In this document: piece by piece, positions 52,381-55,202 of the stretch
Layout of the letters: each line of letters begins with the position of its first letter
How positions within the stretch are numbered: position 1 is the first letter of the stretch
Notes under the pieces: generated by a model
Told to the model about the DNA's origin: nothing
Database searches by the model: none
Seen by the model: the letters and a program-made list of their open reading frames with translations, nothing else
NCBI RefSeq assembly: GCF_000024025.1
Contig: NC_013131.1
Coordinates: 7,130,001 to 7,194,000 of the forward strand
Length of the DNA: 64,000 nucleotides
Direction of reading: 5' to 3'
From: Catenulispora acidiphila DSM 44928
GTDB lineage: Bacteria > Actinomycetota > Actinomycetes > Streptomycetales > Catenulisporaceae
Made by a program: the position numbers and the translations under genes

Positions 52381-53712
52381 TCACTCGCGCCGTACATCCG
52401 GTTCGACGGCGGGCCAGCGACCTCTCGACTGGAAGTACTCCAGGGCGGCGGGGGTCTCGGTGAATTCCAGCAGGCCGCCGACTTTCTGCTCCAGAATGAC
52501 GCGGACCTCGGCCGGGGTGGCGAAGAAGAACTCGCGGCGTTCGTTGACGTAGTTCACGCGGCGGTGGGCGAACGACTTGTGGAGTTCGTGCTCGAGTGCG
52601 ATGGCGTCGTCGGAGAAGAACAGCGCGTGCACGTCGTATCGGAACGGCACGGAGGCGTCCCCAAGTTCTCGGACACGGTCCATCGGCTCCAGGCGTCTGG
52701 TCATGCCGATCTTCACGACGCCCGGCCCGAACGCGCCGATGTTGGAGATGACGTACACATAGCCGGCGCGGATGTTCGCGATGCGGTAGTCGTTCGTCGC
52801 GATGGCCTGCTCGATGTCGGACAAACGGCCGGCGAGCTCGGCAGCCGCACTCTCATCACCCTTGGCCCGCAACGACTCCAGCACCGTGACGTAGTGGCTG
52901 CGCTCCTTCTCCAGGCGCTCGCGCTCAGCAGCAAGCTCAGCCTCGACACGGCGCTGCTCGCGAAGAAGCTCGCGTTCCTCGCGCGCCTTCTGCCGCTCTT
53001 CCTGAGCCTTCATCTGAAAGTCGGCGGTCAGCTCCAGCTCGGCGACGCGCAGCGCGTGATAGGCCGGGCTGATCCGCATCTCCATGATGCGTCCGAGCCT
53101 CTCGATCGCAGCCATCGCGGACTCAAGGCGCCTCTTCGCCGTGTGCACGTTGCCCGACCGAAGCGAGCGCACGCAGTTGTCCGCCTCAGCGTTGTACGCC
53201 CGCAGCATCAGCTTCGACAGGTCAGCGACAAGCTTGCGCCCCTTCGCCAAAGACCCGCTGAAGGTGAACAGCTCAGATGCCAGGATCGCCTGCCCCGCCT
53301 TGATGACCGCATCGATCTGGCCATCCAGCTCCTGAAGGCGCTCCTTGTACGCCGCCGCGTCCTCAAGGGGATGGTGGTAGCGGTAGATGCCGACGTCTTG
53401 CAGGATCCGCTGATCGGACAGCTCGATCACATCAGAAGCCGCCTCTCCGCCTTGGGCCGCGGCGAGTGCCGCCTCCAGCGACGCGATCCGCGCCAGCAGC
53501 ACTTCTGTCCCGGCTGGAGCCACTGACACAGGCGCTGGTGCCGCGACGGCCTCCGGCTGCGCCTCAGCCTCGGCTCCGGCGTCATCTCCGTCATGGATAA
53601 AGAGTTCCCAGCCCTCAGGCGGGGCGGGCCACGAAGCGTCCGGTACCCACCCGGCTGGCGGCGTCCAGCCTTCCGGCGGAGTCGGCCAACCCGGCGGTGG
53701 ATTGAACCGCAT
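52381..53712 (-). CDS. DUF4041 / T5orf172 (GIY-YIG-like) nuclease-domain protein
   Basis: A 443-residue multidomain protein. Residues 1-35 carry four PP(x)GW motifs (PPPGW, PPEGW, PPAGW, PPEGW); about 65-85 a short helix; about 100-300 a helical, coiled-coil-rich DUF4041 region (ELSDQRILQDVGIYRYHHPL, EEERQKAREERELLREQRRV-like); about 320-410 a T5orf172/Mug113 domain, a GIY-YIG relative. Its key residues are visible: YVYVISN, VVKIGMTRR, Arg of MDRVREL, Glu of ALEHELHKSF and Asn of NERREFF. Start 2 nt after the stop of the coiled-coil gene; both are probably one operon. GC is lower than in neighbours. Confidence 0.85.
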   Translation of the reverse strand: MRFNPPPGWPTPPEGWTPPAGWVPDASWPAPPEGWELFIHDGDDAGAEAEAQPEAVAAPAPVSVAPAGTEVLLARIASLEAALAAAQGGEAASDVIELSDQRILQDVGIYRYHHPLEDAAAYKERLQELDGQIDAVIKAGQAILASELFTFSGSLAKGRKLVADLSKLMLRAYNAEADNCVRSLRSGNVHTAKRRLESAMAAIERLGRIMEMRISPAYHALRVAELELTADFQMKAQEERQKAREERELLREQRRVEAELAAERERLEKERSHYVTVLESLRAKGDESAAAELAGRLSDIEQAIATNDYRIANIRAGYVYVISNIGAFGPGVVKIGMTRRLEPMDRVRELGDASVPFRYDVHALFFSDDAIALEHELHKSFAHRRVNYVNERREFFFATPAEVRVILEQKVGGLLEFTETPAALEYFQSRGRWPAVEPDVRRE

Positions 53713-53714
53713 CC

Positions 53715-55040
53715 TCAGGCGCTCCGTATCGCCCGGACGCCGGGCGCCGTGTCGGCGGGCGTCAGGTCGAACGGAGACTTCGACAGTGCCGCGCCGAGGT
53801 GCTCGAGTGTCGCCTTCGGCACGACGTTGGACAGGTCGAACTTCGTGAACGCCTCACGCTCGGCGGCCACCACCACGAGCGGGATCGTGCCGAGAAGACC
53901 TGTGCCGGGGTCGATGGTCTCCACGCCGACCGTCAGGGAGATCGAATGTATCTTGCCTGCCCGATCTGCTTCGAAGACCTCGTGCAGCGTGCGGACGGCC
54001 ACCTGGTACACGGCATCGGCGAATCGGCTTTTCTGCTCGCGGGCCGACAACAGGGTGGCTGCGATCTCATTGTGTGCCTTGATGTACTTGTACTCTTTGA
54101 CCGTCGGCATCTTCGACGGTTCCGGTACCGTCACGGTCAAAGTCAGCTCACGGCCGTGCAGCGCGAACGCGTGGTCGTGCTCGACCGGGAATATCTCGGG
54201 GTATACCGAGTTGGCGAGCACGATTCCGACGTATTCGTCGATGGCTGACTCCACGTCGAATGCCAGACCGTTGATCAGTGTGTCGAGTTCCGCGTTGCGG
54301 GCGGCGGCTTGCGCATTCCGAGCCTCGCACTCATCCCGGTATTTCGCTTCCGCCTCCGCGAGCTTGCGCTTGCGCGCCTGCTCCAGTTCATCGCGGTGCG
54401 CGAGTTCCCCCTGATAAGCGGCTTGCAACGCTTGGTCGGCACGCCACCATTCAGCGTACGTCGCCTCGAAGGCAGCTCTGGCCTCAGCAACGGTCTTCTC
54501 GTAGCGCTTCCTCCCGCCGAACGCGGCGCCCATGCCGGCCGGCGGCATCGGCTCGTTCCACACCGGCGGATACCACCGCTGGGGAGTGGGTACCGCCTGG
54601 GTCTCGACCGCCAGCACGCCGGGCTCGAAGGGCGGATGGTCGACCGTCGTTATCTTCAATGTGGCCAAGTCGACGTAGTCGTCCACTTCGAGCGTTGAAG
54701 CCAGAATGCCGTCGATGTCCGAGTATTGAGCCGCCAGGTTTGCGTTCAGCTCTTCCACTTCGGCAAGACGCGCCTCAGCGAGCAAGCGCGCGGCTTCCCG
54801 CTCCGCAGCCTTCTGCTCCGCTATCGACGCGCGCGTGGCAGCGGCCTGCGCCCGTTCATAGTTGCGCATTGCCTGCTCGTAGCCGCGTTGCGCCGTGGCG
54901 TGCGCTCGCTGCGCAGCCGCATGTGCCCGTTGAGCTGCGGCTGCTTGTTGCCGGCGCCGTTTTTCCGCCTGTTGCGACTGATACTGCAACTCTGCGAAAA
55001 ACCCACGCCGCTTTGCCACCACAACCCCCAACGTTCGCAC
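53715..55040 (-). CDS. Coiled-coil protein partnered with the GIY-YIG-like nuclease
   Basis: A 441-residue cytoplasmic protein. Residues about 10-105 are a long Gln/Arg/Ala-rich coiled coil beginning AKRRGFFAELQYQSQQAEKR; EELNANLAAQYSDIDGILAS and TLEVDDYVDLATLKITTVDH follow; about 175-240 is a second coiled coil; about 250-440 is a conserved C-terminal domain (SAIDEYVGIVLANSVYPEIF, KMPTVKEYKYIKAHNEIAAT). The same N-terminus precedes Mrr-type restriction domains in some actinobacterial proteins, as I recall; here no Mrr domain follows. Start: GTG at 55040, with GTGs at 55022 and 55019 as alternatives. The 162 bp upstream is AT-rich and likely holds the promoter. Confidence 0.72.
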   Translation of the reverse strand: MRTLGVVVAKRRGFFAELQYQSQQAEKRRRQQAAAAQRAHAAAQRAHATAQRGYEQAMRNYERAQAAATRASIAEQKAAEREAARLLAEARLAEVEELNANLAAQYSDIDGILASTLEVDDYVDLATLKITTVDHPPFEPGVLAVETQAVPTPQRWYPPVWNEPMPPAGMGAAFGGRKRYEKTVAEARAAFEATYAEWWRADQALQAAYQGELAHRDELEQARKRKLAEAEAKYRDECEARNAQAAARNAELDTLINGLAFDVESAIDEYVGIVLANSVYPEIFPVEHDHAFALHGRELTLTVTVPEPSKMPTVKEYKYIKAHNEIAATLLSAREQKSRFADAVYQVAVRTLHEVFEADRAGKIHSISLTVGVETIDPGTGLLGTIPLVVVAAEREAFTKFDLSNVVPKATLEHLGAALSKSPFDLTPADTAPGVRAIRSA

Positions 55041-55202
55041 CGGAGCCCGTCTCGATTCACCCTAGTCGAACATAGTGAGCCGCCGATACATGGTGAATAT
55101 ATCGTTCAAGTATCGGTGCCGTAGCGGCATCGCGATCCTTATACCGGTTAACGCTAGGGTTTTATATTCACTAGTAGCTGCTACCGGTGGTGATCCAGCC
55201 CC

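Follow-up and report, generated by a model that had tools for sequence, protein, structure and literature searches.

Here we describe a two-gene module of Catenulispora acidiphila DSM 44928 in which a nuclease of the PD-Lambda-1/SNIPE family, encoded by gene B, is preceded by gene A, a homologue of the N-terminal part of Mrr-type restriction endonucleases that ends shortly before the Mrr domain would start. The window analysed is a stretch of 64,000 nucleotides (positions 7130001-7194000 of a one-contig genome of 10,467,782 bases), and both genes lie on its minus strand, A upstream of B, with 2 nt between the open reading frames (ORFs), just where the original prediction had placed them. The pair is conserved across genomes, and on balance we lean toward a reading in which A aims and restrains B, as a two-gene variant of SNIPE. 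SNIPE itself is already known; what appears to be new is the two-gene form with A.

PD-Lambda-1 of Escherichia coli was found in a functional selection, according to the available part of PMC9519451. SNIPE (Nature 2026) is presented, in the available portion of PMC13190303, as an inner-membrane-anchored nuclease that cuts phage DNA during injection. In the same portion, the DUF4041 domain is reported to bind DNA and probably tape measure proteins, SNIPE without its transmembrane (TM) region is highly toxic in E. coli, and the E414A substitution abolishes both defence and that toxicity; a TM segment is predicted in 66% of SNIPE homologues and none in 34%. Neither this portion nor the available text of a review (PMC12904381) describes a partner gene. 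Literature searches, confined largely to open-access journal articles, turned up no paper recognised as describing A or a SNIPE encoded by two genes.

Comparison with a defence-gene database and with domain and phage families indicated that B is a PD-Lambda-1/SNIPE-family nuclease. Residues 90-430 match the PADLOC model for PD-Lambda-1 (PDLC03976, E 9.2e-104), and residues 90-429 match phrog_1847 of PHROGs (E 3.9e-106). The PPxGW repeats, DUF4041 and T5orf172 domain attributed to B from its letters were all recovered, the first at residues 1-40, the second with E 2e-20 (72.8 bits, cut-off 27) and the third with E 2.9e-14 in Pfam. Like SNIPE, B joins DUF4041 through long connecting helices to a GIY-YIG domain and has a variable N-terminus, and 10 of 11 nuclease positions are identical to those of a 500-aa plasmid-borne E. 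coli homologue, which has a His in place of B Tyr 318. The GIY-YIG domain also resembles PADLOC PDC-S57 proteins (residues 316-409, E 1.2e-18), but only this domain matches them, while PD-Lambda-1 covers residues 90-430. Across 75 aligned A-linked Bs (alignment A5, which leaves out L084, L093, L100, L112, L118 and L150), Y318, Y320, K334-G336, R346, H362, E374, N387 and N390 are invariant, so that the catalytic-type residues noted at the outset are conserved in the family, and the DUF4041 region is conserved as well. The AlphaFold2 model of B (mean pLDDT 88.1, pTM 0.60) places long helices between DUF4041 and the nuclease; a PDB structure search gave no match at E <= 0.001, with Slx1 among the weak matches, and a PDB sequence search gave none at 0.1. 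B differs from SNIPE as characterised in E. coli in lacking a TM helix and in its position behind gene A, an order seen in 79 of 80 loci.

Gene A had been predicted to encode a plain coiled-coil protein of 441 residues, and both parts of that description change. The 441-aa ORF spans 53715-55040, and because homologues share the N-terminus M[AG][RK]RRGF[FL]AE, A most likely starts at GTG 55019, 21 nt inside, giving 434 aa; a start codon could be placed before this motif in 77 of 80 loci using a loose pattern. The protein matches PADLOC mREase_IV (PDLC03663) at profile positions 5-380 of 544 (E 5.5e-31), and is thus part of a restriction enzyme rather than a coiled-coil protein alone; the defence database recognises both proteins, A only as the N-terminal part of its model. 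Like Mrr-type restriction endonucleases (mREase_IV; PF04471), A is colinear with their N-terminal ~400-430 residues, but unlike them it has no Mrr_cat, the PD-(D/E)xK nuclease domain (Pfam, E <= 0.001); no other Pfam family was found on A at this threshold. The AlphaFold2 model of A has a mean pLDDT of 91.6 and a pTM of 0.76, and conserved positions are spread along the whole length of the protein in an alignment of A-linked As (A4, which leaves out L096, L100, L150 and L151). A search of BFVD with A returned one match of unknown function (E 6e-4), the best VIA-align Z was 7.0, within what the tool calls common, and a PDB sequence search gave seven weak matches, mostly to coiled-coil proteins (best E 0.042).

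Relatives of A in the class were found in 40 of 296 genomes (44 matches), and 29 of the 43 matches outside the window were read. Eight of them, L003-L010, are the closest (40-60% identity) and terminate as A does. The 21 that follow (L011-L031, 25-38% identity to A by tblastn) mostly continue for ~160-200 residues, with extremes of 337 in L031 and only 33 in L024, and 20 of the 21 contain Mrr_cat. In L011, for example, the A-like part ends ~160 residues before the end of the protein, and Mrr_cat occupies residues 434-545 of 562. Because these distant relatives continue into Mrr_cat where A ends, A corresponds to the front part of an Mrr-type enzyme made as a separate protein. A tblastn search with one Mrr domain found it in 0 of 80 linked loci; the same query detects every one of the 28 fused relatives, of which 20 are genomic and 8 viral. 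None of these 28 adjoins a B: no B was seen within 1.5 kb after the match for the 21 distant class relatives, nor within 2-6 kb after it for the eight viral ones. We also considered A as a pseudogene or truncated Mrr gene, and rejected this: all 79 loci that could be read share the Mrr-less end, their tails being 0-11 aa long, and a search of these loci detected no remnant of Mrr. Two of the fused relatives have additional neighbours or domains. A DarT ADP-ribosyltransferase gene (PF14487, E 1.7e-55; L011:3084-3770) starts 2 nt after the A-Mrr restriction gene of L011, and a single frame at L031:1333-3549 contains the A-like part, Mrr_cat (434-546) and TerD (590-733).

Such kinship could also mean that A and B form a two-subunit modification-dependent (type IV-like) restriction enzyme, in which A would read DNA modification or structure and B would be a substitute nuclease, with no part played by injection or the membrane. 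The N-terminal part of Mrr-type enzymes, with which A is colinear, is assumed to read modification or structure, Mrr_cat is present in nearly all of the distant relatives, PADLOC names A's family type IV, and 14 of 15 plasmid records matching A, which align in its C-terminal part, are annotated as restriction endonuclease. However, the 75 aligned A-linked Bs keep DUF4041, which in SNIPE binds DNA and probably tape measure proteins (PMC13190303, available portion). We regard this explanation as unlikely, though it is the main competitor to the SNIPE-like reading.

A profile of nine Mrr-less As, run against one genome per species, found 150 relatives, and the results given here are for the best 80 of these 150; this set and the class set seem to overlap, with some genomes recurring. 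In 79 of 80 loci the gene directly downstream of A, on the same strand, is B; at the remaining one, L100, A is cut off by the contig end. L084 and L118 seem to have a broken B frame, and that of L093 and L112 runs off the contig. An in-frame B start is available at -8 to +36 nt relative to the A stop in 78 of 79 loci, most often at -4, -1 or +2, a spacing that is partly selected because the start nearest to the A stop was taken. The loci come from 37 named genera (23 carry no genus name) and are assigned to Actinomycetota (65), Nitrospirota (4), Pseudomonadota (4), Verrucomicrobiota (2), and Acidobacteriota, Gemmatimonadota and Ca. Peregrinibacteriota (1 each), with 2 having no phylum. The 13 loci assigned outside Actinomycetota comprise 12 metagenome-assembled genomes by title, for which mis-binning is possible, and one isolate, Aliidiomarina maris. 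Within the class set, eight of nine Mrr-less As (window included) have B. In the ninth (G088, L069:4279-6738), A is open but the similarity to B stops after ~39 residues from its start, and ORFs that look transposase-like by eye are close by. A plasmid of Kocuria rosea bears the pair near DUF262 and HEPN genes, annotated as 'hypothetical protein' and 'DUF4041 domain-containing protein'. Among viral contigs there are nine relatives of A, and the sole Mrr-less one adjoins B; A has no match in INPHARED phages. Together, these observations strongly support A-B as a conserved two-gene module. They bear out the expectation that the pair would be found together in unrelated genomes and not mostly as singletons, the Mrr-less As that were read having B with one exception of unclear state (L024). 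The proposal of an uncharacterised defence system holds in that the module is a two-gene one with a likely defence role, judged by the 79 of 80 linkage, but its nuclease belongs to a known family.

Not every DUF4041 protein has an A. DUF4041 occurs in 23 of 296 class genomes, in 8 with A upstream and in 15 without, which argues against a coiled-coil/DUF4041 pairing as a general rule and limits A to one group of DUF4041 proteins. We assembled 26 solo DUF4041 genes, 15 from the class and 11 from plasmids (L189-L199; one plasmid-record search covered 188 records, 40 of them among the matches listed), and found no A relative (E <= 0.01) within 1.8-4.6 kb upstream of any. Trees were built with every second linked locus. 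In the B-core tree, one branch with support 100/99 parts 42 A-linked from 26 solo proteins, and in the A-core tree a long branch (100/100) parts 40 A-linked from 20 Mrr-fused proteins, with three Mrr-fused proteins as nearest neighbours. Midpoint rooting makes the Mrr-less form derived; because this root is for drawing only, we infer the direction of change, in which A would have arisen by loss of Mrr from a fused enzyme. The two genes are inherited together, and distances within A and within B correlate (r 0.87 over 73 pairs; the highest of 1000 permutations reached 0.11). Such a shared history could also be hitch-hiking, if the pair were an ordinary accessory locus of two separate, functionally independent defence proteins that have stood side by side since one ancestral event. 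Both proteins are of defence type, and defence genes cluster, but linkage this complete across so many named genera, with starts this close, exceeds what island clustering would lead one to expect, and no Mrr-less A lacks B among the 79 readable loci; we consider independence very improbable. Other solo SNIPE genes may have other partners (L194; also L192 and L196): on a Hymenobacter plasmid (L194:2078-4083), the DUF4041 gene comes 17 nt after the end of a gene that carries the annotation NINE protein. On an E. coli plasmid (L189:3611-5113), a SNIPE-like gene lies among phage replication genes, next to ren.

We next consider the membrane anchor, using the Kyte-Doolittle peak in a window of 19 residues (threshold 1.6) as a proxy for a TM helix. 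None of 77 A-linked Bs exceeds the threshold; the peak is 1.32 in the B of C. acidiphila and 3.37 in the E. coli homologue. Solo DUF4041 proteins exceed it in 7 of 26 cases (1 of 15 from the class, 6 of 11 from plasmids), and outside Actinomycetota in 5 of 7, versus 0 of 11 A-linked proteins (Fisher p 0.0025; the rows are related and p is only a guide). The N-terminal PPxGW is present in 68 of 77 A-linked Bs. It is missing in four Rhodococcus/Rhodococcoides, one Nocardia and two Mycobacterium loci, the misses in L084 and L150 being reading-frame problems, and also in G188 of the class set. PPxGW does not appear to be a private A-docking motif, as it also stands on solo DUF4041 proteins and on other proteins of the genus and family, and only four weak columns of A change in parallel in both lineages that lost it. 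In five such other proteins (L183, L184, L185, L186 and L187), a hydrophobic segment follows PPxGW in three, judged by eye. All 11 A-linked Bs read from other phyla bear PPxGW, which is otherwise seen here in actinobacterial proteins, and this suggests that the pair passed from Actinomycetota to other phyla.

The toxicity of TM-less SNIPE in E. coli (PMC13190303, available portion), combined with the lack of TM helices in A-linked Bs, would also fit a toxin-antitoxin-like pair, in which A would do no more than neutralise a host-cutting B that is freed when a phage attacks A or the cell; the gene order and coupling resemble those of such pairs. A is about as long as B, however, with conserved positions along its length and homology to the front part of an enzyme. 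In addition, because 14 of 15 solo class loci have TM-less relatives of B, these relatives need no A. A pure antitoxin role for A appears improbable to us.

We propose instead that A and B are two subunits of a SNIPE-type anti-phage nuclease. B would provide DNA binding through DUF4041 and cleavage through its GIY-YIG domain, and A would be the sensing and restraining subunit, a former Mrr-type N-terminal module that has lost its own nuclease and is now a separate protein. Acting in trans, A would be the counterpart of the N-terminal membrane region of E. coli SNIPE: it would hold B off host DNA and direct it to phage DNA as this enters, or to a component of the phage. Once A encountered its cue, release or positioning of B would follow, and B would cut the invading DNA; candidate cues are the injection machinery, DNA modification and DNA state. 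The homologies, the linkage, the co-inheritance, the absence of Mrr from A and of a TM helix from B, and the conserved catalytic residues are observed; the A-B complex, the restraint, the cue and phage defence by the pair are what we infer. More tentatively, A may be a portable infection sensor with exchangeable cutters, namely Mrr when fused, the SNIPE GIY-YIG nuclease in trans, and sometimes further effectors (DarT, TerD).

Several observations weigh against this proposal. The missing anchor alone does not explain A, because 14 of the 15 solo class DUF4041 proteins (one a fragment) are also without a TM helix; the anchor contrast rests on seven solo proteins outside the phylum. As a simple rule, the replacement of the TM anchor by A is weakened accordingly, and we keep it for the contrast outside Actinomycetota only. 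B could also be localised without the help of A, by N-termini of the PPxGW or DUF2510 type. In A itself no TM helix is clear (the threshold is exceeded in 3 of 80 As, each time within the C-terminal domain), which leaves a membrane role of A unsupported. A PDB structure search with A gave no match at E <= 0.001. In G071, an A relative (L024/L072; L072:5825-7378) has neither Mrr nor B nor any Pfam match. Finally, the neighbourhood evidence speaks for the proposal, with limits. As many as 155 PADLOC models (E <= 1e-10) are matched by 148 ORFs beside the pair, against 8 by 136 control ORFs, but this contrast counts redundant models and not proteins, with one kinase alone matching 31, and the taxa of the two sets differ. 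When ten large neighbours were scanned singly, six matched nothing; the four that matched are a type IV enzyme at L131, IetS at L120, a kinase at L091 and a TPR protein at L077. The flanking set took two ORFs per side at 37 of 56 eligible loci, with ORFs called by a simple codon-position rule, and the control set came from 20 stretches at round coordinates in six pair-bearing genomes. These surroundings point to a defence setting, though they do not amount to a measured enrichment.

In C. acidiphila, the pair appears beside a conserved chromosomal block. The gene order flavoprotein-Ohr-metX-metY-CoA-binding, in which the first two are putative names given from sequence, is kept in six genomes, five from the genus and one from the family, and DNA similarity to those genomes stops at the end of the CoA-binding gene. 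Matches to B in 20 related genomes, among which are nine congeners (two <85% complete) and three members of the family, are limited to the PPxGW part (residues 1-64 at most). Because similarity stops there and relatives match only PPxGW, the A-B pair is an accessory locus in this genome. The lower GC content that had been predicted is present but modest: the pair has 0.654 compared with 0.693 for the window, and the GC3 of A (0.771) is below all ten flanking genes measured (0.808-0.931), while that of B (0.813) falls inside their range. The AT-rich spacer of 162 bp upstream is as first described (Table 1). No sigma-70 consensus promoter was found in this spacer, and a scan for promoter and terminator consensus gave nothing above chance. 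The imperfect palindrome within it is a possible operator.

Table 1 Features of the A-B locus, in window coordinates.
Feature	Position	Strand	Basis or remark
Gene A	53715..55019	-	434 aa, start most likely GTG 55019; Mrr-less homologue of Mrr-type restriction endonuclease N-terminal module; proposed sensor/tether
A conserved N-terminal motif, type M[AG][RK]RRGF[FL]AE[LMI]	54978..55019	-	Homologue comparison
A first long helical stretch, residues 7-103 of 434	54711..55001	-	AlphaFold2 model
A second long helix, residues 169-253	54261..54515	-	AlphaFold2 model
A C-terminal alpha/beta domain, ~residues 257-415	53775..54251	-	AlphaFold2 model; part still aligning with distant plasmid restriction endonucleases
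Gene B	52381..53712	-	443 aa; nuclease of the PD-Lambda-1/SNIPE family, lacking a transmembrane helix
B PPxGW tryptophan/proline-rich N-terminal domain, residues 1-40	53593..53712	-	Sequence; mean pLDDT 87-91, nearly without secondary structure
B DUF4041, residues 167-222	53047..53214	-	Pfam PF13250
B long connecting helices, residues 216-284 and 287-315, DUF4041 to nuclease	52768..53067	-	AlphaFold2 model
B GIY-YIG nuclease domain (T5orf172), residues 317-408	52489..52764	-	Pfam
B codon of E374	52591..52593	-	Aligns with E414 of the 500-aa E. coli homologue
AT-rich intergenic stretch upstream of A	55041..55202	.	GC 0.525
Imperfect palindrome CCGATACATG-N14-CAAGTATCGG upstream of A	55083..55116	.	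10-nt arms, 90% complementary, 14 nt apart; candidate operator

The module also sets a trap for annotation. PADLOC scores A as a type IV enzyme though its nuclease is missing, and scores B as PD-Lambda-1, with no slot for a partner. Self/non-self discrimination by SNIPE was ascribed to its place in the membrane, and the A-linked group has a partner related to restriction enzymes instead of an anchor. How TM-less SNIPE proteins are restrained and aimed thus becomes a testable question on a defined gene pair. If the proposal is right, SNIPE nucleases would have a second means of confinement, a soluble partner in place of the membrane anchor, and bacteria would be swapping cutting parts on one shared sensing module.

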